From Myxococcales bacterium (lineage in GTDB: Bacteria > Myxococcota > Myxococcia > Myxococcales > Anaeromyxobacteraceae), in contig JAKAEO010000001.1 in assembly GCA_021818285.1 (NCBI GenBank), positions 1 through 64,000 on the forward strand: a stretch of 64,000 bases of DNA. The letters run 5' to 3'. Every line of letters begins with the position of its first letter. The stretch's first letter is position 1. The notes below the pieces were generated by a model, which saw only the letters and a list, made by a program, of their open reading frames with translations, did not search any database and was not told the origin of the DNA. The position numbers and the translations under genes are program-made. Positions 50,740 through 64,000 of this stretch are shown here, piece after piece.

Positions 50740-53241
50740 CTACGCCTCCTCGCGCCGCTGCCGCCAGAGCCAGGCCGGCAGCGCCACCAGCGCCGCGCCG
50801 ATGCAGGTGAGCTCGCCCAGGGAGGCGAGCAGCCCGAAGCCGCGCAGCGCCCGGCTGTCGGCCACCAGCAGCGAGGCGTAGCCGATGATGGTGGTGAGGG
50901 AGCAGAGGGCCACCGCCCCGCCGGTCTCGTCCAGCACCCGGCGCAGGGAGAGGCCGCGCTCCAGGCGCCAGCGCTGCACGATGTTGGCGGCGTAGTCCAC
51001 CCCGATGCCGAAGGTGATGGGGAGGACCACGAAGTTCAGGAAGTTGAAGCGGACGCGGAAGGCCGCGGCGGCCCCCACCAGCCAGGCGACGCCGAGGAGC
51101 AGGCTGCCGATGACCAGCAGGGAGGGGCGCCACCGCCGGAAGGTGACCGCCACCAGCGCCACCACCAGCGAGAGCGCCAGCGCGGTGGCCTTGGGGCCGT
51201 CGGTGAAGATGGCGCGGGAGATGTCCTCGAAGAGCAGCGACTGGCCCACCGCCTCGGCCCGGGCGCCCGACCGGGCGATGGCCCCGCGGATGAAGCCGAC
51301 GAACTCGTGCAGCTCCTTCGGCCCCAGCACCCCGACCTTCCGCGGGAACACCAGGGCGATGCGGCCGCTGGAGCCGTCCCGCTCCTGGAGCGGCCGGCGC
51401 AGCGCCGAGGGCAGGTCCGCCAGGGTGAAGGTGCGCAGGTCGGTGGGGGGCCGGAAGGCGAGCGCCTGCGCCCGAAGCGCCGGGTCGAGCCGCTCCAGCC
51501 GGGCGTCGGAGAGCGACTCCCGCAGCCGCTGCAGCAGGGGCAGCTTCTCCGCCTGGTCGGGCGGGACCACCGTCTCCAGGGTGCGCACCTCGCGGATCGG
51601 GTCGCCGGCGCCGGCCGCCTCGCGCTCCCGGGCGAGCGCCGCCACCACCCGGGCGAGGTCGGCGGGGGTGTCGCCGCGGATCACCGTGGGGGTGAGGTAG
51701 GCCTGGAAGACCTCGTCCACCTTGTGGCCCCAGTACTGCGAGCCGCTGCGCGCGCTGCGGGCGGAGCGGAGCCGGTCGAGGTCGTACTCCACCACCGGGC
51801 CGCGGTAGGAGAGGACGGCGGCGCCGGCGGCGAGGAGCAGGGCCACCGTGGCGATCCGGACCGCCCGCCCGTGCCGCTCCGCCAGGTCGGCGGCCCACTC
51901 GCCCACCCGCGTGCGGTGGACCGGCACCGGCGCCCGGTCCCCGCCGTCGAGCACCGCCACCAGCGGCGGCAGGACCAGGTAGGCGCTCACCCAGCACAGC
52001 GCCATCCCCAGGCCGCCGATGACGCCGAACTGGCTGAAGCCGCGGAAGTCGGTGACGGCGAGCGACAGGTAGGAGAGGCCGGCGGCGAAGGAGGCGACGA
52101 AGGTGGCCGCCAGCGTCCCGGCGGTGGCGCGCTCCAGCGAGGGCTCCAGCGCCGCGCCGCGCCGCCGCTCCTCCAGGTAGCGGGCCACGTAGATGATGGA
52201 GACGTTGATGCCGTTCCCCACCACGATCGAGCCCAGGAAGGCGGTGTTGGCGTTCAGGTAGCCGACCAGCGCCCAGGAGAGGCCGAAGGTGACGGCGCAC
52301 CCGGCCGCCAGCGACCCGGCGATGGCGAGGATGGAGCGCCAGCGCCGGAAGTAGACCCAGAGCGAGAGCAGGACCAGGGAGAGCACCACCACGGTGGAGG
52401 AGACCAGGTCGGCGGCGAGCGACTCCTGCTCCTCGAGCACCGAGGCCACCTCGCCGTCGTAGCCGACGCGGACCGCCGGGTCGTAGCTCGCCGGCTCGAC
52501 CTCCGCCACCACCCGCTTCACCGCGTCCAGCAGGGCGCGGCCGGCCCGGGCGCCGGTGGCGTCCTCGGGCGGCCGGACCAGCAGCACCAGCAGCCGGCCG
52601 TCGGGGGTCTGGAAGTAGCCGTTGCGGAAGCGCGCCAGGAGCGCGGTCGCGCCGCCGTACTTCCGCTCGATGTCGGAGAGGTCGAGCGGCGGCGCCGGGT
52701 CGGCCCGGGCCTCCTCGCCCTCGCCGAGGATGTCGAGGAGCGGGTTGGCCCGCCGCTTCTCCCAGGCGACCCGCCGGTCGACGCGCCGCTGGATCTCCCG
52801 GAGGTCCTCCACCGACAGGTAGAAGCCGCCGAAGCGGCGCAGGAAGGCCTCCTGCGCGTCCACCCGGTAGTCCACCGTGGAGACCATCGACCGCGGCAGC
52901 CGCCGCAGCCGGTACGCCAGCGCGTCGGCGAGCCGCTCCAGCCCCTCCGGATCCTTCCCCTCCAGCACCACCGAGAGGTGGATGACCGAGTGGAGCCTGG
53001 GCGCCACGGTGCGCGCCGCCACCACGCTGGGCGCCGTCGCCGGGAGCAGCTCCTCGATGTCGGAGCGGAGGTCGGAGTAGAGCAGCGCGGAGAGCGCCGC
53101 GCCGGCGAGCGAGAGCAGCAGCGTCCCCCAGAGCACCGGGCGCCGGTGGCGCAGGAGCCAGGGGACGAGCCGGCGGGCGATCCGCTCCGCCAGGCCCGGG
53201 CCCCGGCCCCCGCCGCCCGCCGCCGGGAGGGCGTCCCTCAC
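50740..53241 (-). CDS. RND-superfamily (MMPL/HpnN-like) lipid exporter
   Basis: The gene encodes 833 residues from GTG 53241, overlapping the oxidoreductase stop (GTGA). Two halves, each with one helix, a large periplasmic domain and five helices, contain IVVGNGINVSIIYVARYLEE and LPITFGIGVDYAANIVQRWR. Size and layout match HpnN-type hopanoid/lipid RND transporters rather than drug pumps. With the divergent TolC-like and MlaC-like genes, it probably moves a lipid to the outer membrane. It is the third gene after the aminotransferase and Gfo/Idh genes. Confidence 0.87.
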   Translation of the reverse strand: MRDALPAAGGGGRGPGLAERIARRLVPWLLRHRRPVLWGTLLLSLAGAALSALLYSDLRSDIEELLPATAPSVVAARTVAPRLHSVIHLSVVLEGKDPEGLERLADALAYRLRRLPRSMVSTVDYRVDAQEAFLRRFGGFYLSVEDLREIQRRVDRRVAWEKRRANPLLDILGEGEEARADPAPPLDLSDIERKYGGATALLARFRNGYFQTPDGRLLVLLVRPPEDATGARAGRALLDAVKRVVAEVEPASYDPAVRVGYDGEVASVLEEQESLAADLVSSTVVVLSLVLLSLWVYFRRWRSILAIAGSLAAGCAVTFGLSWALVGYLNANTAFLGSIVVGNGINVSIIYVARYLEERRRGAALEPSLERATAGTLAATFVASFAAGLSYLSLAVTDFRGFSQFGVIGGLGMALCWVSAYLVLPPLVAVLDGGDRAPVPVHRTRVGEWAADLAERHGRAVRIATVALLLAAGAAVLSYRGPVVEYDLDRLRSARSARSGSQYWGHKVDEVFQAYLTPTVIRGDTPADLARVVAALAREREAAGAGDPIREVRTLETVVPPDQAEKLPLLQRLRESLSDARLERLDPALRAQALAFRPPTDLRTFTLADLPSALRRPLQERDGSSGRIALVFPRKVGVLGPKELHEFVGFIRGAIARSGARAEAVGQSLLFEDISRAIFTDGPKATALALSLVVALVAVTFRRWRPSLLVIGSLLLGVAWLVGAAAAFRVRFNFLNFVVLPITFGIGVDYAANIVQRWRLERGLSLRRVLDETGGAVALCSLTTIIGYASLLVADSRALRGFGLLASLGELTCIGAALVALPAWLWRQRREEA

Positions 53242-54353
53242 GGCGCGGACCGGCCGCCCGGCCCGGGAGCCGAGAGGGGCAACTCGCGGCAGCCGTCCGC
53301 GGCCGAGCGGTAGGCGGTGGTGATGACCTCGATGCAGCGCCAGGCGTCCCGGGCCTCGGCCCCGGCGAAGTCGCCCGCGTCCACCGCGGCGAGGAAGCCG
53401 TCGAACATGGCGTTGAACCAGCGGGTGTGGCTCGCGTCCATCCACTCCGAGTCGAGGGTGCGCCGCTCCACGTCCCAGGTGACCGCCCCCTGCGCCACCT
53501 CCGGCCCCGACGTCCGCCGCATCACCGCCAGCTGCAGCTCGTCGTCGTCCACGGTCACGGCGCCGGCCTCGCCCTGCACCGTGTAGATGACCTTGCGGAC
53601 GCCGGCGGTCCAGGTGAGGTGGGCGTGGGCCAGCCGCCCCCCCGGGAAGGTGAGCACCGCCGAGAAGTTGTCCTCGGTGTCCCAGCGCTCCGGCTCCTGG
53701 TTGGCCATCTTGGCGGTCACCGCCACCGGCCAGTCCTTCATCCAGTCGAAGGTGAGGTAGAGGGTGTGGCTGCCGTGGTCCATGGCGATGCCGCCCCCCG
53801 ACCAGCGGACCTGGCGGCGCCAGTGGGTGTTCCACTCGGGGACCCCCTTGGCGTGGGTGTTGCGGAAGGTCTCCAGGGTCACCGAGCGCACCGTGCCGAT
53901 GCGCCCGGAGGCGATGATCTCGCGCACCGCCGAGACCACCGGGGCGTGCTTGTAGTTGTGGCAGGGGTAGAGCACCCGGCGGGCCCGGGCGGCGTGCTCC
54001 AGCAGCGCGGTGGCGTCGGCCAGGGTGGTGGTGAGCGGCTTCTCGCAGAGGACGTGGAGCCCGAGGTCGAGGGCCCGGTGGGCGATGGCGGCGTGGTCGC
54101 AGGGGGGCGTGGCCACGTCCACGAAGTCGAGGACGCCCGCCTCGGCGGCGAGCAGGGCCGCGGCGTCCGGGTAGGTCCGCGCCCCCGGCAGGCGGGCCGC
54201 CGCCAGCGCCCGGCGCGCCTCGCTGACGTCGGCCACCGCGACGATCTCCACGTCGTCGCGCTTCGCGTAGGCGGGGAGGTGGCCCTGCGCGCCGATGAAG
54301 CCGTGTCCCACCAGGGCGCCGCGGAGCTTCCGGGCCGGGGTGCGGGGTGCCAT
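53238..54353 (-). CDS. Gfo/Idh/MocA-family oxidoreductase
   Basis: A 371-residue NAD(P)-dependent dehydrogenase. Rossmann start LVGHGFIGAQGH, CEKPLTTTLADATALL (catalytic Lys), and a C-terminal domain with MDHGSHTLYLTFDW. The family includes inositol 2-dehydrogenases, sugar-lactone and aldose oxidoreductases. With myo-inositol-phosphate synthase nearby, a cyclitol substrate is worth considering. It lies 24 bases after the aminotransferase and overlaps the RND gene. Confidence 0.88.
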   Translation of the reverse strand: MAPRTPARKLRGALVGHGFIGAQGHLPAYAKRDDVEIVAVADVSEARRALAAARLPGARTYPDAAALLAAEAGVLDFVDVATPPCDHAAIAHRALDLGLHVLCEKPLTTTLADATALLEHAARARRVLYPCHNYKHAPVVSAVREIIASGRIGTVRSVTLETFRNTHAKGVPEWNTHWRRQVRWSGGGIAMDHGSHTLYLTFDWMKDWPVAVTAKMANQEPERWDTEDNFSAVLTFPGGRLAHAHLTWTAGVRKVIYTVQGEAGAVTVDDDELQLAVMRRTSGPEVAQGAVTWDVERRTLDSEWMDASHTRWFNAMFDGFLAAVDAGDFAGAEARDAWRCIEVITTAYRSAADGCRELPLSAPGPGGRSAP

Positions 54354-54377: not shown

Positions 54378-55718
54378 CTAGCGCCAGCCGCCCGAGGCCG
54401 CCAGCGCCGCGAAGGCCTCGTCGAGGAGCGCCAGCCCCTCGAGCGCCGTCTCCCGGTCGATGGTCAGCGCCGGCTGCAGGCGCAGGTGGGGGGTGTAGGC
54501 CATCGCCAGCAGCCCGCGCCGGACGCAGTCCTGGTAGAGCCGCCGGGTGACGGCGGCGTCGAGCGGCTCCCGGGTGGCCCGGTCCTTCACCAGCTCCACC
54601 GCCAGGAACAGGCCGGCGCCGCGCACCGCGCCGACGAAGGGGTGGCGCTCCTGCATCCGCCGCAGCTCCGCCAGCATCTCCGCGCCCACCCGCTCGGCGT
54701 TCTCCCAGAGCCGCTCCTCGCGGATGGTGCGCACCGAGGCCAGCGCCGCGGCGGCGGCGAGCGGGTTCCCGCCGTAGCTGGAGGAGGCGCCGGAGGGGTC
54801 GGCCCAGGGGCGGGTGTCGGCCACGGCGCTCCGGGTGAGCACGCCGCTCACCGGGAAGCCGGAGCCGAACCCCTTGCCCAGGGTGACCACGTCGGGCCGG
54901 GTGCCCGAGTGGTCCACGCCCCAGGGCCGGCCGGTCCGGCCGAAGCCGGTGATCATCTCGTCGGCGATGAAGAGCGCGCCGACCTCGCGGGCCGCCTCCG
55001 CCACCGCCGGGAGGAACCCGGGCGGCGGGACGACGTTCCCGGCGGTGCCCTGCATGGGCTCGGCGATCACCGCCGCCACCGGGCCGCCGGGCTGGGCCCG
55101 CAGCGCGCGGCGCGCGAACTCGGCGCAGGCCAGGCCGCAGGAGGGGAGCTCGAGCCCGAAGGGGCAGCGGTAGCAGTCGGCGTAGGGGATGAGCGTGGCC
55201 CCGGCCGGGAGCGGTCCCAGCGCGGTGCGGGAGCGGGAGCCGAGCAGCGCCGCCGCCCCGGCGGTCTTCCCGTGGAAGCCGCCCCAGAAGCCCACCACCT
55301 CCTGGCGCCCGGTGTGCTGGCGGGCGAGCCGCAGCGCCGACTCCACCGCCTCCGAGCCGCCGGAGTAGAGCTGCAGCCGGTCGAGCCCGTCCGGCGCCAG
55401 GGCGCAGACCTCGTTCACCAGCTCGGCGCGCGGCGCGGTGGTGAAGCTGCCGACGGTGAGCCGGGCGGCCTGGGCGGACAGCGCCGCGACGTACCGGGGG
55501 TGGCAGTGGCCCAGGGCGTTCACGCCGATGCCGCCGATGAGGTCCACGTAGACGTTGCCGTCCACGTCGGTGAGGGTGGAGCCGGAGCCGCTCTCCATGG
55601 CCACGCCGGCCCACAGGGCGAAGCCCTGCAGGCCGGGGGCGAGGTGGCGCTGCTCGGAGGCGACGATCTCCCGCGACCGGGGGCCGGGGACGGGGGTGCG
55701 GATGCGCGCTTTCGTCAT
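54378..55718 (-). CDS. Class III PLP aminotransferase
   Basis: A 446-residue GabT/ArgD-like enzyme: LYSGGSEAVESALRLAR, GFWGGFHGKTAG, FIADEMITGFGRTGR and the PLP Lys in VVTLGKGFGSGFPV. A Cys-rich insert YADCYRCPFGLELPSCGLAC is present, as in some family members. It is the first gene of the minus-strand operon (aminotransferase, oxidoreductase, RND). HpnO, which aminates hopanoids, belongs to this class, but no squalene-hopene cyclase is visible. The acceptor may be a sugar, cyclitol or lipid ketone. Confidence 0.88.
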   Translation of the reverse strand: MTKARIRTPVPGPRSREIVASEQRHLAPGLQGFALWAGVAMESGSGSTLTDVDGNVYVDLIGGIGVNALGHCHPRYVAALSAQAARLTVGSFTTAPRAELVNEVCALAPDGLDRLQLYSGGSEAVESALRLARQHTGRQEVVGFWGGFHGKTAGAAALLGSRSRTALGPLPAGATLIPYADCYRCPFGLELPSCGLACAEFARRALRAQPGGPVAAVIAEPMQGTAGNVVPPPGFLPAVAEAAREVGALFIADEMITGFGRTGRPWGVDHSGTRPDVVTLGKGFGSGFPVSGVLTRSAVADTRPWADPSGASSSYGGNPLAAAAALASVRTIREERLWENAERVGAEMLAELRRMQERHPFVGAVRGAGLFLAVELVKDRATREPLDAAVTRRLYQDCVRRGLLAMAYTPHLRLQPALTIDRETALEGLALLDEAFAALAASGGWR

Positions 55719-55796: not shown

Positions 55797-57143
55797 TTGC
55801 CCAGCGCACTCCTCGCCGCTTTCGCCCTGTCCGCCGCCCCGACCTGCGGCCCGCTCGACCTCGACGCCGCGATGTCGCTCGCGGCCTCGCGCAGCGACGA
55901 GGTGGCGGTGCGGCTCGCCGACCGATCGTCGGCCGAGGCCGACGCCGCCCTGGCCCGCGCGGCGCGCCTGCTCCCCTCGGCCAGCGCCACCCTGCTCCTC
56001 GGCCCGGTGCCGCGGGCCCGCGGCGACGTGGTGGACTCGCCCGACTCGAACCGCAGCCTGCGCGGGCTCGGCCCGGCCGGGCGCGTCGAGGTGGAGGCGG
56101 TCCAGCCGCTCTTCACCTGGGGGCGGCTGGACGCCGCCCGCGACGCCGCCGCGGCCGGGGTCCGGGCCCGGACGCTGCTCGTCGAGGAGCAGCGGCTGGA
56201 GGTGGAGCAGCGGGTGGTCCGGCTCTACTGGGGCGAGGCGCTGGGCCGCCGGCTGCTCGCCCTGGCCGCCGAGGTGGAGAAGGCGCTCGACGAGGTGGAC
56301 CGGCGGGTGGCCGAGTCGCTGGCGCGGGGCGACGGCGCCGTCACCGAGTCGGACCGCCACCGCGTGGACCACTTCCGCGGGCTGCTCCGGCAGCGGAAGG
56401 CCGACGCCGCCCGGGGCCGGGAGCTGGCGCGCGTCGGGCTGGCCGCCACCCTGGGGCTCCTGCCCGAGCAGCTCCGTCTCGCCGAGGTGCCCCTGGAGGC
56501 GCCGGCGGCGCCGATCCCGGCGGCCGCGGAGGCGCGGGCCCTGGCCGAGCGGCAGCGGGCCGACCTGCGCGCCCTGGACGCCGCCATCGCCGCCCGCGAC
56601 GCCGAGGTGCGGGCCGAGGAGGCGGCCGCCCGGCCCCAGCTCTTCCTGGGCGGCTACTTCCGCTACGCCTACGCGCCGAACCGGGACATCCAGTCCAACC
56701 CCTGGGTCCACGACCCCTTCAACGAGCTGTCGATGGGGCTGGCGCTGGGGGTGCGGCAGGACCTGGCGGTCCCGATGCTCTCGGCGCGCGCCGAGAAGGC
56801 GCTGCGGGAGCGGGCGGCGCTGGAGGCGCGGCGCCGGGCGCTGGCGCGGCTGGTGGACTTCCAGGTGGACGGGGCGCTCGCCGACCTGCGCGCCGCCGCC
56901 GACAAGCTCGACGCCGCCCGCGCCACCGAGGGCTCGGGCCGGGCCTGGTTCCGCGCCGCCGGGCTCGACTTCGCCGCCGGCCTGACCGAGGCCAAGGACC
57001 TGCTCGAGGCCTACGCCGGCTACGCCGAGAGCCAGGGCTGGCTGGCCCAGGCCACCTACGACCTGCTCGCGGCCCGCGCCGGGCTGGACCAGGCCACCGG
57101 GACGCTGGTCCCGCGGAGGGAAGCCACGTGCGCCTTGCCCTGA
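55797..57143 (+). CDS. TolC-like outer-membrane efflux protein
   Basis: The gene encodes 448 residues from TTG 55797 behind GGGGA. Alanine-rich signal peptide, then the duplicated OEP helical pattern (LDLDAAMSLAASRSDEVAVR; EVEAVQPLFTWGRLDAARDA; SQGWLAQATYDLLAARAGLD). It should be the outer-membrane channel for the nearby RND exporter. It overlaps the next gene by 16 bases. Confidence 0.85.
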   Translation: MPSALLAAFALSAAPTCGPLDLDAAMSLAASRSDEVAVRLADRSSAEADAALARAARLLPSASATLLLGPVPRARGDVVDSPDSNRSLRGLGPAGRVEVEAVQPLFTWGRLDAARDAAAAGVRARTLLVEEQRLEVEQRVVRLYWGEALGRRLLALAAEVEKALDEVDRRVAESLARGDGAVTESDRHRVDHFRGLLRQRKADAARGRELARVGLAATLGLLPEQLRLAEVPLEAPAAPIPAAAEARALAERQRADLRALDAAIAARDAEVRAEEAAARPQLFLGGYFRYAYAPNRDIQSNPWVHDPFNELSMGLALGVRQDLAVPMLSARAEKALRERAALEARRRALARLVDFQVDGALADLRAAADKLDAARATEGSGRAWFRAAGLDFAAGLTEAKDLLEAYAGYAESQGWLAQATYDLLAARAGLDQATGTLVPRREATCALP

Positions 57144-57697
57144 CGCTCGCCGCCCTGCTCGCCGCCGGCGGGTCGGCCACCGACGCCCTGCGCGAGCGGG
57201 ACGCCGAGGTCCGCGCCGCCCTGCCCGCGCCGGGGAAGGAGCCGGACGAGGCTGCGCGGCGCCGCATCGAGGCCATCGTCGCCCGCACCGTGGACCTCCG
57301 CGGGATGCTCCAGGCCGCCCTGGGGCCGCGCTGGGGCCGGATCACCGAGAAGCAGCGGCGCCGGCTGCTGGCCGCCTTCGAGAAGCGCTTCCGCGCCGTC
57401 GGCGGCGCCCAGCTGGACGATTACCGCTCGGCGCAGATCGAGTACCTGCCGGAGGAGCCGGAGGGCGACCGGGTGCGGGTGCCGACCCGGCTCACCGTGA
57501 AGGGGGAGACCACGCCGGTGGCGTACCTGCTGGCCCCGGAGAAGGGCGGCTGGCGCATCGTCGACGTGGTGGTGGACGGCGTCTCCACCGTCGGGAACTA
57601 CCGGGCCTCCTTCGCGCGGGTCATCGCCAAGGAGGGGGTGGACGGGCTCGCCGCCCGGCTGGAGCGGGGCGCCGCCGCCGCGGGGCGGGCCCCGTGA
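57128..57697 (+). CDS. MlaC/HpnM-like lipid carrier
   Basis: The gene encodes 189 residues from GTG 57128 with strong GGAGGGA. Signal peptide (about 1-17), then the Ttg2D/MlaC fold: ITEKQRRRLLAAFEKRFRAV and the ending IVDVVVDGVSTVGNYRASFA, which is diagnostic. MlaC and HpnM carry phospholipid or hopanoid between membranes. Position between TolC-like and phosphatidyltransferase genes supports lipid traffic. Confidence 0.88.
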   Translation: MRLALTLAALLAAGGSATDALRERDAEVRAALPAPGKEPDEAARRRIEAIVARTVDLRGMLQAALGPRWGRITEKQRRRLLAAFEKRFRAVGGAQLDDYRSAQIEYLPEEPEGDRVRVPTRLTVKGETTPVAYLLAPEKGGWRIVDVVVDGVSTVGNYRASFARVIAKEGVDGLAARLERGAAAAGRAP

Positions 57698-58473
57698 CCC
57701 CCGGCTGGCTCGCCTCGCCGGCCGTCGCCGTCGTCCCCCTGCTGGTGCTGGTGGCCCTCTTCGCCGGGGGGATGGCGATCTTCGCCGTCCGGACCGCGCT
57801 GGGGAGGGGGCCGCGCACCGACCGGGTGGAGCGGCAGGGCGGCACGGTGGTGCTCGGCAAGTGGATCATGGAGTTCGGGCTGTGGATGTGGCGGCCGGCG
57901 GAGCGGGCGGCGGTCCGGCTCGGCATCCACCCCGACGCCATCTCCTGGAGCTCGCTGCTGCTGCAGCTGGCGGCCGGGCTGGCGCTGGCGCTGGGCGCCT
58001 TCGGCGCCGCCGGCTGGATGCTCACCCTCGGGGCGATCTGCGACGCGCTGGACGGGGCGGTGGCCCGCGCCCGGAACATGGCCTCTCCCTCCGGCGAGCT
58101 GCTCGACGCCGCGGTGGACCGCTGGGGCGAGACCGCCGTCTTCCTGGGCTACGCCTGGTACTACCGCGGCCTGTGGTGGGGCTTCCTCCTCTCCGGCGCG
58201 GCGCTGGCCGGCGCCTTCATGGTGAGCTACGCCCGGGCCAAGGGGGAGGCGGCGGGCGTCGACGCGAAGATGGGGCTGATGCAGCGCCACGAGCGCGCGG
58301 TGCTGCTCATCCTCTCGACCGTGGGCTCGGCGCTCTGGGACGCCGCGCGGCCGGCGGCCGGCTTCGCGCTCCACGCCCCGGTGCTGGTGGCGCTGGCCGC
58401 CATCGCCCTGCTCGCCAACCGCACCGGCTGGCAGCGGACCGCCTTCGCGCGGCGCGAGCTCGAGCGCCGATGA
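57694..58473 (+). CDS. CDP-alcohol phosphatidyltransferase (candidate phosphatidylinositol-phosphate synthase)
   Basis: A 259-residue membrane enzyme with the full CDP-alcohol motif D117-x2-D120-G-x2-A-R ... G134-x3-D138-x3-D142. About six helices are present. It starts at GTG overlapping the MlaC-like stop and overlaps GtrA by ATGA. In a cluster with inositol-phosphate synthase and a phosphatase, CDP-diacylglycerol plus inositol-phosphate is a likely reaction, but glycerol-phosphate or other alcohols are not excluded. Confidence 0.85.
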   Translation: MTPGWLASPAVAVVPLLVLVALFAGGMAIFAVRTALGRGPRTDRVERQGGTVVLGKWIMEFGLWMWRPAERAAVRLGIHPDAISWSSLLLQLAAGLALALGAFGAAGWMLTLGAICDALDGAVARARNMASPSGELLDAAVDRWGETAVFLGYAWYYRGLWWGFLLSGAALAGAFMVSYARAKGEAAGVDAKMGLMQRHERAVLLILSTVGSALWDAARPAAGFALHAPVLVALAAIALLANRTGWQRTAFARRELERR

Positions 58474-58916
58474 GCGGCGCACCGCGCCGCGGCCCGGCCG
58501 CCGAGGCCCTCCACTTCCTCCGCGCCAACCTCGCCTCGGGCGCGGCCACGGCGGTGGACTGGTCGGTGGTCACCGGCCTCATCTGGGCCGGGGCCCACTA
58601 CCTCGGCGCCGCCGCCTCCGGCGCCGTGGCCGGCGCGGTCACCGACTTCTCGCTGAAGCGCCACTGGGCCTTCGGCCGCGAGGCCAAGGGGCCGGCCCAC
58701 GCCGAGGGGCTGCGCTACCTGGCGGTGGCCGCCGCCTCGCTGGGCTGGAACCTCGCCGGCTCCTGGCTGCTGGTGTCGGTCCTCGGGCTCCCGCCGGTGG
58801 CCGGCGTCATCGCCGCCTCGGTGGCGGTGGGCTTCGCCTGGAACTACCCGCTCCACCGGCTCTGGGTCTTCCCGCACGCCCCCGGGGCGGGCGGTCCCGC
58901 GGGAGGGGCGCGGTGA
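58470..58916 (+). CDS. GtrA-family membrane protein
   Basis: A 148-residue protein with four helices and the GtrA pattern (FLRANLASGAATAVDWSVVT; SFAWNYPLHRLWVF-like end VGFAWNYPLHRLWVF). GtrA proteins are thought to flip polyprenyl-linked sugars or support cell-surface polysaccharide synthesis. It overlaps both neighbours (ATGA and GTGA), so it is made with the phosphatidyltransferase and HAD phosphatase. Confidence 0.85.
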   Translation: MSGAPRRGPAAEALHFLRANLASGAATAVDWSVVTGLIWAGAHYLGAAASGAVAGAVTDFSLKRHWAFGREAKGPAHAEGLRYLAVAAASLGWNLAGSWLLVSVLGLPPVAGVIAASVAVGFAWNYPLHRLWVFPHAPGAGGPAGGAR

Positions 58917-59587
58917 GCGGGCGCCCCTGGGCGGTGGTCTGCGACTTCGACGGCACGGCGACGGTCGAGGATCTCGCCGACGGCCTCTCCATCGCCTTCG
59001 CCGGGGCGGAGGCCTGGCACCGCGCCGAGGCGGAGTTCCAGGCGGGCGCCATCCCCTTCGAGGAGCTGCTGCGCCGCATCTTCGAGCCCATCCGGGCGAC
59101 GCCCGGGCAGCTGCGCGCCTTCGTGCGGGAGCACGGCCGCTTCCGGCCCGGCTTCGAGCGGCTGGTGCGCACCTGCCGGGAGCGGGCCATCCCCTTCACC
59201 CTGGTCTCGGGGGGGCTCGATCTCTACATCGAGCCGGCGCTGGAGCGGCTCCCGGCCGACGTCCGGGAAGGGCTGGAGCTCCGCGCCAACCACGCCGAGC
59301 GCACCGCCACCGGGCTGGCGCTCACCTTCCCGTGGAAGGACGCCCCCGGCTCCTGCGGCACCTGCGGCTCCTGCAAGGGGGCGGTGGTGAAGGCGCTGCA
59401 GGCCCGCGGCCACCGGGTGGTGGCGGTGGGCGACGGGAACGCCGACCGCTGCGCGGCGCGGGAGGCGGACCTGGTCTTCGCGCGCGGCCGGCTCCTCGAC
59501 TGGTGCCGGCGGGGCGGGCTCCCCTGCGAGCCCTTCGAGACCCTCGACACCGTGGCCGACCGGGTGGCCGCGCTCGGCACGGGGTGA
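58913..59587 (+). CDS. HAD-IB phosphatase (MtnX/SerB-like)
   Basis: A 224-residue HAD enzyme: VVCDFDGTATVED, TLVSGGLDLYIEP, and VVAVGDGNADRCAAREADLV. A CGTCGSCKG loop is a Cys-rich insertion seen in MtnX-like phosphatases. In this context it may dephosphorylate phosphatidylinositol-phosphate or a ceramide/sphinganine phosphate. It is the last gene of the plus-strand operon and converges with the PAP2 gene (4-base gap). Confidence 0.82.
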   Translation: MSGRPWAVVCDFDGTATVEDLADGLSIAFAGAEAWHRAEAEFQAGAIPFEELLRRIFEPIRATPGQLRAFVREHGRFRPGFERLVRTCRERAIPFTLVSGGLDLYIEPALERLPADVREGLELRANHAERTATGLALTFPWKDAPGSCGTCGSCKGAVVKALQARGHRVVAVGDGNADRCAAREADLVFARGRLLDWCRRGGLPCEPFETLDTVADRVAALGTG

Positions 59588-59591
59588 GCCG

Positions 59592-60518
59592 TCAGCGCGC
59601 GGCCCGGCGCCGCTCCAGGGCCTTCTCCAGCCCCCAGGCCGCCACCGCGTAGGCGACGCCCAGCAGGACGTCGAGCACGTAGTGGTGGTCGAGGTAGACG
59701 GCGGCGAAGGAGACGACCAGGAAGAGGCCCAGGCTGGCGGCGTCGAGCCAGCGCTTCCCGAGCTCCCGCCCGTAGAGCCAGGTGAGGAGCGGGTAGGCGA
59801 CGTGCAGCGAGGGGATGGCGCCGAAGACGTCGGCGCTGCGGCCGTAGAAGCCGGCGAACCAGGGGATGCCGGTGAGCGCGTCCCAGCGCGCCGCGCCGGC
59901 GGCCGAGGAGCGGGCCGCCATGTCGGCCGGCCCCAGGCCGTACCGGGCCACGTACCAGGGCGGGGCCGCCGGGTAGACGTAGTAGGTGGCGAAGCCCACC
60001 AGGTTCATGGCCAGGAAGGTCCAGCCGAAGCGGACCAGCACCCGGCGGGTCCGCTCCTCGCGGGCGAAGATCGCCAGCGCCGCCGCGAAGCCGATCGACC
60101 AGAAGACGTAGACGATGTAGGCGAGGCCGGTGATGAAGTCCACGACCGGCCAGTGGTGGCGGGCGAACCACTCGTTGGGGGTGAGCGGCCCCTCCGGCGT
60201 GGAGATGGCGAAGAAGCGCCGGTCGAAGGCGTAGGGCTCCGCCACGTGGACGTGGAGGTGGCGCACCAGCGGCTCGGTGAGGTGGGTGAGGTCGTAGACG
60301 ACGCCGAAGATCAGGAAGGGCAGCAGCCCGGCCAGCACCCGGCGGGTGGCGTCGCTCCAGGCGGCGAGCGCCAGCGCCAGCCCGGCCACCAGGAACTGCT
60401 CGGGCCGGTTCCCGCTGGTGAGCCCCATCACCGCGAGGTAGGCCCCGAGCCCCGCCGCGTAGGCGAGGAGCAGCCGCCGCGGGGCGGCGCGGAGCCGCTG
60501 CCCGAGGGTGGGACGCAC
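59592..60518 (-). CDS. PAP2-superfamily enzyme resembling Aur1 inositol-phosphorylceramide synthase
   Basis: A 308-residue protein with about six to eight helices. Active-site blocks: TYYVYPAAPPWYV, GAIPSLHVAYPLLTWLYG (H239) and YLDHHYVLDVLLG (H279, D283). H-x3-D spacing and the IPSLH block match the PAP2_3/Aur1 branch, which transfers phosphoinositol from phosphatidylinositol to ceramide in fungi. The neighbouring inositol-phosphate synthase supports this. A plain lipid-phosphate phosphatase is the alternative. Confidence 0.82.
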   Translation of the reverse strand: MRPTLGQRLRAAPRRLLLAYAAGLGAYLAVMGLTSGNRPEQFLVAGLALALAAWSDATRRVLAGLLPFLIFGVVYDLTHLTEPLVRHLHVHVAEPYAFDRRFFAISTPEGPLTPNEWFARHHWPVVDFITGLAYIVYVFWSIGFAAALAIFAREERTRRVLVRFGWTFLAMNLVGFATYYVYPAAPPWYVARYGLGPADMAARSSAAGAARWDALTGIPWFAGFYGRSADVFGAIPSLHVAYPLLTWLYGRELGKRWLDAASLGLFLVVSFAAVYLDHHYVLDVLLGVAYAVAAWGLEKALERRRAAR

Positions 60519-60530
60519 CGCCCGGTCCCG

Positions 60531-61835
60531 TCAGCCGACGGCGCTCTCGGCGGCCGCCGAGGCGCCGCGGGCGTAGCGGGCCAGCTGGCGGTGCAGGATG
60601 GTCTGCTGGGCGAAGAGGTCGTGGACCGCGGCGCGGCCCGGCGCCGTCACCGGGCTCTTGAAGAAGAAGGAGAGCCACTCCAGCGGCCCCTTCTCCCCCG
60701 CCCGCTGCGCCAGGTCGGTCAGCAGCGCCAGGTCGAGCACCAGCGGCGCCGCCAGGATCGAGTCCCGGCACTGGAAGTTCACCTTGATCTGCATCGGGTA
60801 GCCGAGCCACCCGAAGATGTCGATGGCGTCCCAGCCTTCCTTGTTGTCCCCGCGCGGCGGGTAGTAGTGGATGGTCACCTTGTGCTCGACCTCGCCGTAG
60901 AGCTCCGGGTGGCGTCCGGCGTCGAGGATCTCGTCGAGCACGCCGAGCTTCGAGACCTCCTTGGTCCGGAAGGCGTCCTCGTCGTCCAGCACCTGGCCGT
61001 CGCGGTTCCCCAGGATGTTGGTGGAGAACCAGCCCTCCAGCCCGAGCAGGCGCGCCGAGAGCATGGGGGCGATGGTGGTCTTCATCAGCGTCTGGCCGGT
61101 CTTGAAGTCCTTGCCGCCGGTCGGGACCCCCTCGCGGTCGGCCAGCTCGCGCAGCGCCGGGACGTCGGCCGAGAGGTTGGGCGCGCCGTTCAGGAAGGGC
61201 AGCCGGCTCTTCAGCGCCGCCCAGGCGTAGACCATGCTGGGCGCGATGGTGGGGTCGTCCCGGTCGAGCGCCGCCTCGAAGGACTTCAGGCTCTGGTGGG
61301 CCGGCCCCGGCAGGGCGTACACCTCGGTGGAGCCGGTCCAGACCACCACGCCGCGGCCGCAGCGGTTCCGCTCCAGGAAGCCGGCCATGTCGGCGCGCAG
61401 CGCCTCGGCCCGCGCCCGCAGCGACCCGCGCTTCACGTTGGGGCCGTCGAGCCGCCGCACCCAGGCCGGGTCGAAGACCGCCGGCATCGGCCGCACCGCC
61501 TCCAGCGCCGGCCGGATGGGCTCGAGCAGCCGGGCGTCGATGACCCCGGCCCGCCGCGCCGCCTGGTAGGCGTCGTCGGGGATGGGGTCCCAGCCGCCGA
61601 AGACCAGGTCGTCGAGGGAGGCCAGCGGCAGGGCGTCGGCGAGGCGGGCCCCGGGCCGTCCCTCCTCGTCCCGCAGGTGACCGAGCTGGGTGAGCGAGCC
61701 GATCGGCTTCGCCAGCTGGCGCTTCACCGCCTCCACGCCGGCGATGGCGGTGGTGGCGACGGCGCCCATGCCGGGGAGCAGGACCGCGAGCCGCTCTCCC
61801 CCACGGACGGGACGCAACGGGGTGGATTTCACCAT
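60531..61835 (-). CDS. ino1: myo-Inositol-phosphate synthase
   Basis: A 434-residue NAD-dependent enzyme of the Ino1 family: TSL-type start LLPGMGAVATTAIAGVEA (NAD), GGKDFKTGQTLMKT, NILGNRDGQVLDDEDAFRTK and FFFKSPV. It turns glucose-6-phosphate into inositol-3-phosphate, the headgroup source for inositol lipids. It is co-directional with the PAP2 gene (12-base gap). Bacterial Ino1 is uncommon outside actinobacteria, Bacteroidota and some myxobacteria. Confidence 0.93.
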   Translation of the reverse strand: MVKSTPLRPVRGGERLAVLLPGMGAVATTAIAGVEAVKRQLAKPIGSLTQLGHLRDEEGRPGARLADALPLASLDDLVFGGWDPIPDDAYQAARRAGVIDARLLEPIRPALEAVRPMPAVFDPAWVRRLDGPNVKRGSLRARAEALRADMAGFLERNRCGRGVVVWTGSTEVYALPGPAHQSLKSFEAALDRDDPTIAPSMVYAWAALKSRLPFLNGAPNLSADVPALRELADREGVPTGGKDFKTGQTLMKTTIAPMLSARLLGLEGWFSTNILGNRDGQVLDDEDAFRTKEVSKLGVLDEILDAGRHPELYGEVEHKVTIHYYPPRGDNKEGWDAIDIFGWLGYPMQIKVNFQCRDSILAAPLVLDLALLTDLAQRAGEKGPLEWLSFFFKSPVTAPGRAAVHDLFAQQTILHRQLARYARGASAAAESAVG

Positions 61836-62009: not shown

Positions 62010-62627
62010 TCATCGTGGCCCGGACGAGGGAGTGGCGCCGCGCGGCCTCGGCGCGCGGGCGTGGGTCGCGAAGACCAGGTCCCAGAGCGGCGTGGTGACG
62101 CCGTAGAGCCGGCCAGGGCTCCCGAAGTGGTGCAGCAGGTGATTTCGGCGCTGGAGGCGGCCGAGCGCGGTCCGGGGGCGGTGGTGGTGGATGGCGTAGT
62201 GGGTGAGGTCGTACCAGAGGTAGCCGGCGAGCAGGCCGGCGAAGACCGGGGGGAACCAGGCGGGCCCGAGGGCCGCGCGCGCGGGCAGGGCGAGTGCGGC
62301 GCCGAGCGCCATCGAGACCACCGGCGGCATCACCAGGCGGTCGGGGTCGTGCGGGTAGTCGTGGTGGACGCCGTGGATCAGCCAGGCGACGTCCCGCTGA
62401 AGCTCCGAGCCGGGGTCCGGCTCGAAGTGGAACACCCAGCGGTGCAGCAGGTACTCGAGGAGGGTCCAGGCGGCGAGCCCCGCGGCCGCGCCGGCCGCGA
62501 CCCCGGCCGCCGGCAGGGCGAGCGACGCACGCACCAGGAGCCAGGCGATGACCGGGACCCAGATCGCCACCACCTGCCAGGGCTTCACCCGGGAGAGGTA
62601 GCGCTCGACGCCGTCGGGGCCGAACAT
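62010..62627 (-). CDS. Fatty-acid/sphingolipid hydroxylase
   Basis: A 205-residue di-iron membrane enzyme with His boxes LLHRWVFH (61-67), HGVHHDYPHD (85-94), HYAIHHH (143-149) and NHLLHHF (162-168), the pattern of Scs7/FA2H ceramide 2-hydroxylases. The N-terminal cytochrome b5 domain of the eukaryotic enzymes is absent. It lies divergent from serine palmitoyltransferase (287-base gap) and upstream of ino1, so it probably acts on sphingolipid acyl chains. It needs oxygen. Confidence 0.88.
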   Translation of the reverse strand: MFGPDGVERYLSRVKPWQVVAIWVPVIAWLLVRASLALPAAGVAAGAAAGLAAWTLLEYLLHRWVFHFEPDPGSELQRDVAWLIHGVHHDYPHDPDRLVMPPVVSMALGAALALPARAALGPAWFPPVFAGLLAGYLWYDLTHYAIHHHRPRTALGRLQRRNHLLHHFGSPGRLYGVTTPLWDLVFATHARAPRPRGATPSSGPR

Positions 62628-62914: not shown

Positions 62915-64000
62915 ATGAGGGACCTGTTCGACAAGTGCGCGTCGTGGAAGGAAGTCCAGGTCGTCAAGCTGGCCGGACGCTACCCGTACTACCGCGTCAT
63001 CGACGAGACGGACGGCACCGAGGTCGTCGTCGACGGCAAGCGGCTCATCATGGCCTGCTCCAACAACTACCTGGGGCTGGCCAACGACCCGCGCGTGCGG
63101 GAGGCCGCGGCCGAGGCGGCCCGGACCTGGGGGGCCTCCACCTGCGGCTCCCGCCTCCTGAACGGCACCTTGCGGCTCCACGACGAGCTGGACCGGCGGC
63201 TGGCCCGCTTCCTCGGCAAGGAGGCGGCGGTGGTCTTCCCCACCGGCTTCCAGGCCAACGTCGGCGCCATCGACTCGCTGGTGCTCCGGCACGACCTGGT
63301 GATCGCCGACCGGATGGTCCACGCCTCGCTGGTGGAGGGGATGAACGCCTCGCTGGGCCGGACGCGCCGCTTCGGCCACAACGACGTGGAGGACCTGGAG
63401 CGGATCCTGGCCGCCGCCGAGCCCGAGGCCGGGAAGCTGGTGGTGGTGGACGGCGTCTACTCGATGGAGGGGGACCTGGCCAACCTCCCGGCCATCGTGG
63501 CGCTGAAGAACCGGTACGGCGCGCGGCTGATGGTGGACGAGGCCCACGGCTTCGGCGTGCTGGGGGCCGGCGGGCGCGGCGCCGCCGAGCACTTCGGCGT
63601 CGCCGGCGAGGTGGACCTGGTGATGGCCACCTTCTCCAAGTCGCTCGGCTCCATCGGCGGCGTCATCGCCGGCCGCGCCGACGTGGTGAACTGGATCAAG
63701 CACAAGGCCCGGCCGCTGGTCTTCTCGGCCTCGATGACCCCGCCCATGGCTGCGGCGGCGCTGAAGGCGCTGGAGATCATCGAGCAGGAGCCGGAGCGGC
63801 GCGAGCGGCTCTGGGACATCTCCGAGCGGGTCCACCGCGAGCTGCGGGCCATGGGCTTCGACACCGAGCCCTCGGTCACCCCCATCGTGCCCATCGTCCT
63901 CGGCGACCAGGTGCTGGCCTTCGACTACTGGCGGCGGCTCACCGAGGCCGGGATCTTCGCCAGCCCGGTGGTGAAGCCGGCCGCCGAGAAGGAGCTGGTG
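62915..64000 (+). CDS. spt: Serine palmitoyltransferase (partial, cut by the right edge)
   Basis: The 362 codons seen belong to an alpha-oxoamine synthase. Asn/Tyr region MACSNNYLGLANDPRVREAA, GSRLLNGTLRLHDELD, VVFPTGFQANVGA, DEAHGFGVLG and PLP Lys242 in TFSKSLGSIGG. The start SWKEVQVVKLAGRYPYYRVI matches serine palmitoyltransferases rather than BioF or KBL. It condenses serine and an acyl thioester to 3-ketosphinganine, the first step of sphingolipid synthesis. GGGAGAGG precedes the ATG. The C-terminal about 35 residues lie outside. Confidence 0.9.
   Translation, partial: MRDLFDKCASWKEVQVVKLAGRYPYYRVIDETDGTEVVVDGKRLIMACSNNYLGLANDPRVREAAAEAARTWGASTCGSRLLNGTLRLHDELDRRLARFLGKEAAVVFPTGFQANVGAIDSLVLRHDLVIADRMVHASLVEGMNASLGRTRRFGHNDVEDLERILAAAEPEAGKLVVVDGVYSMEGDLANLPAIVALKNRYGARLMVDEAHGFGVLGAGGRGAAEHFGVAGEVDLVMATFSKSLGSIGGVIAGRADVVNWIKHKARPLVFSASMTPPMAAAALKALEIIEQEPERRERLWDISERVHRELRAMGFDTEPSVTPIVPIVLGDQVLAFDYWRRLTEAGIFASPVVKPAAEKELV

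Follow-up and report, generated by a model that had tools for sequence, protein, structure and literature searches.

An inositol phosphoceramide synthase candidate of the Aur1/BT_1522 kind within a lipid gene cluster of an Anaeromyxobacteraceae genome

Introduction

The role of BT_1522 from Bacteroides thetaiotaomicron in the synthesis of inositol phosphoceramide (IPC) was shown genetically in 2022. The deletion of BT_1522 leads to the loss of phosphatidylinositol (PI)-dihydroceramide, PI being kept, and complementation restores the lost lipid (PMC9246714, PMC8791184). The PI is supplied by BT_1523, BT_1525 and BT_1526 (PMC9246714, PMC8791184). Without the GtrA protein BT_1524, one study saw no change by TLC, and the other saw less IPC and more PI (PMC9246714, PMC8791184). 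These data would fit a possible role of GtrA in PI delivery.

A work cited in PMC9246714 reports ceramide phosphoinositol in Myxococcus xanthus. In Caulobacter, the enzymes SPT (serine palmitoyltransferase) and bCerS are cytoplasmic and CerR is periplasmic (PMC11087976). A literature search on myxobacterial IPC genes and on the mechanism derived from the Aur1-Kei1 structure found nothing direct.

The DNA analyzed here, hereafter the window, is a stretch of 64,000 nucleotides at the start of contig JAKAEO010000001.1. The source genome (87% complete) groups with Anaeromyxobacteraceae-type genomes, and two of the related genomes that were compared (G010 and G022) belong to the same family.

Results

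The gene under study occupies positions 59592 to 60518 of the minus strand, begins with a GTG codon and encodes a PAP2_3 protein of 308 amino acids, in agreement with the open reading frame originally predicted. The APPWY block (residues 185-189; 59952-59966) and the residues H239 of the IPSLH motif (59802-59804), H279 of the HHY motif (59682-59684) and D283 (59670-59672), all encoded on the minus strand and all pointed out in the original prediction, are present and invariant across the 14 homologues of alignment A1. In the alignment with the profile built from these 14 sequences, the yeast Aur1 residues H255, H294 and D298 stand opposite H239, H279 and D283, respectively, H279 being the putative nucleophile. 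At E 1.3e-18 and 67.9 bits, where the cut-off is 27, the match to Pfam PF14378 indicates that the PAP2 motif is not due to chance. The sole NCBIfam match is NF052609, phosphoinositol dihydroceramide synthase (E 8.8e-63), whose 212.5 bits stay below the equivalog cut-off of 480, a value also missed by clear cluster members from Bacteroidales (328 bits) and Saprospiraceae (323 bits). PPWY is present in 71 of the 71 aligned family rows, yeast Aur1 included, and in none of the four other PAP2_3 rows. The source genome contains three further members of this family.

A search of the PDB with the single sequence retrieves AUR1 as the only significant match (E 4.2e-14), and the value reaches 1e-30 with a profile. 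The A1 profile gives AUR1 110 bits over residues 53-310, against 24 and 16 bits for the bacterial PAP2 phosphatases PgpB YodM (5jki) and LpxE (6ebu). These phosphatases have the PAP2 catalytic core in common with the window protein, but their matches are weak and the APPWY block is absent from them in the alignments. A second profile, built solely from Bacteroidota cluster enzymes, assigns 251 bits to the window protein, 93 to yeast Aur1, 44-65 to PAP2_3 proteins without APPWY and 6-16 to lipid phosphate phosphatases (LPP). The AlphaFold model of the window protein has a pLDDT of 88 and a pTM of 0.85. In the Foldseek comparison of this model with the PDB the top two matches are AUR1 (E 7e-8 and 5e-7), whereas the next one, which is the best phosphatase, appears at 2e-2. 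The sphingomyelin synthase family (SMSr, PDB 8ijq) shares the PAP2-type head-group transfer to ceramide, but its fold match is weak (E 0.13, TMq 0.35). Fungal Aur1 (PDB 9ivc, 9vj3, 9vj4), the catalytic subunit of IPC synthase, has approximately 22% identity to the window protein in the structural alignment; both have the PAP2 fold and the APPWY, PSLH and HHY-x2-D motifs, the window protein being the shorter of the two. The Aur1-like branch originally proposed for the protein is backed by the PDB sequence match, the predicted fold and the gene context described below.

The original prediction had also looked to a phylogeny of PAP2_3. In a quick tree, the APPWY family, with Aur1 in it, is set apart from the LPP-like rows with an SH-aLRT of 100, but the AU tests do not place yeast Aur1: the order of Aur1, the LPP-like rows and the window clade is not fixed, and neither is the root. 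Given this and the very long branch of Aur1, the phylogeny is not decisive.

The surrounding genes form a near-complete pathway. On the minus strand, the PAP2 gene is accompanied by ino1 (60531-61835), at the 12-base spacing noted originally, which encodes a myo-inositol-1-phosphate synthase (MIPS; PF07994, E 8.7e-83; PF01658, E 1.7e-32). On the plus strand, five successive genes overlap one another, by 4 bases at each of the last three junctions. They encode a TolC-like outer-membrane protein (55797-57143; PF02321, E 1.3e-22), an MlaC/HpnM-like periplasmic lipid carrier (57128-57697; PF05494, E 4.8e-35), a CDP-alcohol phosphatidyltransferase (CDP-AP; 57694-58473; PF01066), a GtrA-like membrane protein (58470-58916; PF04138, E 5.8e-20) and a MtnX-like HAD-IB phosphatase (58913-59587; TIGR01488, 81 bits against a cut-off of 45). 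The CDP-AP is a probable phosphatidylinositol-phosphate (PIP) synthase: it carries the PIP-synthase motif quoted in PMC9246714 (DX2DGX2AR...GX3DX3D) and scores 111, 95 and 92 bits with the models of archaetidylinositol-P synthase, PIP synthase and BT1523, all under cut-off. The GtrA-like protein is the counterpart of BT_1524 and a candidate lipid flippase or accessory protein. MIPS, the PIP-synthase-type CDP-AP and GtrA are thus all placed beside the PAP2 gene.

Homologues of ceramide synthesis genes also lie close by. The SPT gene starts at 62915 on the plus strand, reaches the window end at 64000 and runs on to contig position 64486; NF047600 is its top family, with 481.8 bits at full length, the cut-off of 640 not being reached. 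Past the window end follow a GNAT gene (contig 64504-65667) and an SDR gene (contig 65678-66673), both with homologues in a Bacteroidales cluster, where they are encoded between the SPT and PAP2 genes, and these are read, from context and family and not from comparison with characterized sequences, as bCerS and CerR. A fatty acid hydroxylase-type protein (62010-62627, minus strand; PF04116, E 4.2e-17) is a candidate ceramide hydroxylase, a homologue of which adjoins PAP2 in Chryseolinea serpens.

Three further minus-strand genes encode an HpnN-like MMPL/RND transporter (50740-53202; PF03176, E 1.3e-31; HpnN 243 bits, below cut-off), a Gfo/Idh/MocA dehydrogenase with an EKP motif (53238-54353; PF01408, E 1e-22) and a class-III aminotransferase (54378-55718; PF00202, E 6.2e-90). 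The last two are, by profile and by linkage with the cluster, candidates for head-group modification. The transporter is placed, with the MlaC/HpnM-like and TolC-like genes (50740-53202 and 55797-57697), amid the lipid genes, an arrangement that suggests a lipid export route.

The HAD-IB gene stands where the Bacteroidota clusters have PgpA. No PgpA-type PIP phosphatase was found in the window cluster, and the one PgpA match of the genome is on another contig. Cluster orthologues of the HAD gene are found in two relatives, G005 and G010 (63-64%), whereas the relatives without HAD in the cluster have just a paralogue elsewhere. Since a 54% paralogue is also found elsewhere in the source genome, the presence of HAD alone is not cluster-specific. 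The HAD-IB protein is a candidate non-orthologous PIP phosphatase. Its assignment as MtnX proper was rejected, the models giving 102-109 bits against cut-offs of 292-303.

A scan of genome contigs yielded 569 relatives, the best 80 of which belong to Myxococcota, Bdellovibrionota, Bacteroidota, Verrucomicrobiota, Nitrospinota, Nitrospirota and Spirochaetota. A CDP-AP gene occurs within about 10 kb at 59 of the 91 non-duplicate loci, and CDP-AP, GtrA and INO1 are together within about 10 kb of PAP2 at many loci from several phyla. Among these, the Bacteroidota clusters carry PgpA, SPT, bCerS and CerR. In the Bacteroidales cluster mentioned above (L107) the order is CDP-AP, INO1, PgpA, GtrA, DUF5686, SPT, GNAT, SDR, DUF4833 and PAP2. 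Of the 14 relatives that carry the synthase, 12 have a bCerS homologue at or above 42%, against eight of the 27 others.

At five loci (L034, L036, L037, L045 and L046), some of them in Myxococcota (e.g., L045), a single open frame covers both CDP-AP and GtrA, an apparent fusion that supports a direct role of GtrA in the synthesis or movement of PI. The best SPT-like matches in G029, G035 and G039 lie in open frames of approximately 2300-2500 codons, which may represent fusions with a large multidomain enzyme, and a similar one occurs in G004. A second Aur1-like PAP2 branch, with a VYDSMRYF / GRGxDVxGA motif, is found at L035, L038, L039, L040, L041, L042 and L044. This branch coexists with another APPWY copy in six genomes, and SDR genes are near several of its members.

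The Gfo/Idh dehydrogenase and the class-III aminotransferase have an identical distribution across the 41 related genomes, each being present in 10. These 10 all belong to the 14 genomes with an Aur1-like PAP2, and both genes are missing from the other 27. By our own arithmetic, which ignores shared ancestry, the chance of this pattern is about 1e-6 for one gene. The co-occurrence still holds in G029, G035 and G039, in which the dehydrogenase is on another contig. At the level of loci, both genes are found at many Bdellovibrionota and Myxococcota loci and at no Bacteroidota locus. The aminotransferase accompanies CDP-AP at 30 of 36 delta/Bdellovibrionota loci against 0 of 15 in Bacteroidota (Fisher p 2e-8, shared ancestry ignored).

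Discussion

From its homology and catalytic residues, together with the fold and the gene context, the window gene very probably encodes an IPC synthase of the Aur1/BT_1522 kind, with PI and (dihydro)ceramide as the predicted substrates. Points that weigh against this reading are the NF052609 score under the equivalog cut-off, the low identity to Aur1, the branching order left unfixed by the AU tests and a phosphatase other than that of the Bacteroides pathway. In the predicted reaction, phosphatidylinositol would give up its phosphoinositol head, which the membrane-embedded enzyme would attach to the primary hydroxyl of (dihydro)ceramide, and diacylglycerol would be released. By analogy with Aur1 and the PAP2 enzymes, H279, helped by D283, would attack the phosphate and form a phosphohistidine, and H239 would serve as general acid/base. 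The order of the pathway steps is likewise a proposal: the CDP-AP would join inositol phosphate to CDP-diacylglycerol, the extra phosphate is probably taken off by the HAD enzyme and GtrA may carry the PI across the inner membrane to its outer face. The ceramide would be made by SPT, bCerS and CerR, and MlaC, RND and TolC probably move the lipid outward. A PAP2 site facing the periplasm, as we infer it, would be compatible with the periplasmic location of CerR in Caulobacter.

Two other functions of the PAP2 protein were weighed. The PAP2 catalytic motifs are shared with lipid phosphate phosphatases, which are common in the superfamily, and the protein might have been an ordinary member of these. 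Nevertheless, Aur1 is a far better match than the phosphatases, both by profile and by fold, APPWY and PSLH are lacking in the other PAP2_3 proteins compared, and the conserved surroundings are those of inositol and ceramide synthesis. Profile, fold and context thus speak against a plain phosphatase, and we reject this reading as very improbable. A transfer of phosphoinositol to a non-ceramide acceptor, e.g., another lipid alcohol, is somewhat less remote and still unlikely. It draws on Anaeromyxobacter oryzae (G022, locus L042), which has kept CDP-AP, GtrA, the dehydrogenase, the aminotransferase and a group-B PAP2 paralogue and has no orthologue of SPT or bCerS, so that this paralogue may use another acceptor. 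The group-B paralogue, however, represents a branch different from that of the window gene. SPT and bCerS are near the cluster at the window locus and in three relatives, and a bCerS homologue is present in 10 of the 10 distant genomes tested. With SPT and bCerS this close to the window gene, the argument from A. oryzae does not apply there.

The third alternative concerns the head group and leaves the transferase reaction unchanged; it therefore refines the IPC synthase assignment and does not exclude it. With a dehydrogenase and an aminotransferase next to ino1, the head group may be an aminated inositol. The locus would then make an aminoinositol (aminocyclitol) phosphoceramide, the two enzymes turning inositol (phosphate) or a glucose-6-phosphate precursor into the amino form before its attachment to the lipid. 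This possibility, which we hold tentatively and consider rather less probable than its converse, draws on the occurrence of both genes in the same, exclusively synthase-bearing genomes and on the distribution of the aminotransferase between the delta/Bdellovibrionota and Bacteroidota loci. It also draws on Bdellovibrionota loci such as L055, where dehydrogenase, ino1, CDP-AP, GtrA and aminotransferase lie together in one direction. On the other hand, inositol dehydrogenase models match the Gfo/Idh protein weakly (61 bits against a cut-off of 355) and the aminotransferase could act in another step. An NtdABC-like kanosamine route, which would combine dehydrogenase, aminotransferase and HAD, is presumably a loose analogy only. 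An aminoinositol phosphoceramide, if true, would be a lipid class of which no example was found in the literature searched.

The IPC synthase assignment places the window protein in the same family as BT_1522 (NF052609), with the same surrounding MIPS, PIP-synthase-type CDP-AP and GtrA. The window locus differs from the BT_1522 system by a synthase under the equivalog cut-off, by HAD where Bacteroidota have a PgpA-like PIP phosphatase, by SPT, GNAT (bCerS-like) and SDR (CerR-like) within a few kb, and by the extra Gfo/Idh dehydrogenase, class-III aminotransferase, RND, MlaC and TolC genes. The enzyme alone is a further member of a known family and the locus is a variant of a known cluster. Bacterial PI-to-ceramide phosphoinositol transferases are established (BT_1522, NF052609; PMC9246714, PMC8791184), a precedent that the original prediction had missed, so that enzymes of this class are no novelty; the family assignment of the original prediction is supported. 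What is new is the myxobacterial version, with HAD in place of PgpA and the conserved Gfo/Idh dehydrogenase and class-III aminotransferase.

Most of the known bacterial IPC synthases come from Bacteroidota, and a very probable one is now placed in Anaeromyxobacteraceae with its pathway around it. Its relatives, judged from the best 80 of 569, extend to Bdellovibrionota, Nitrospinota, Verrucomicrobiota and others. As Aur1 is an antifungal target, such varied bacterial homologues would aid its study. The clusters offer a candidate replacement PIP phosphatase and a possible head-group modification, which can be checked by lipid mass spectrometry.
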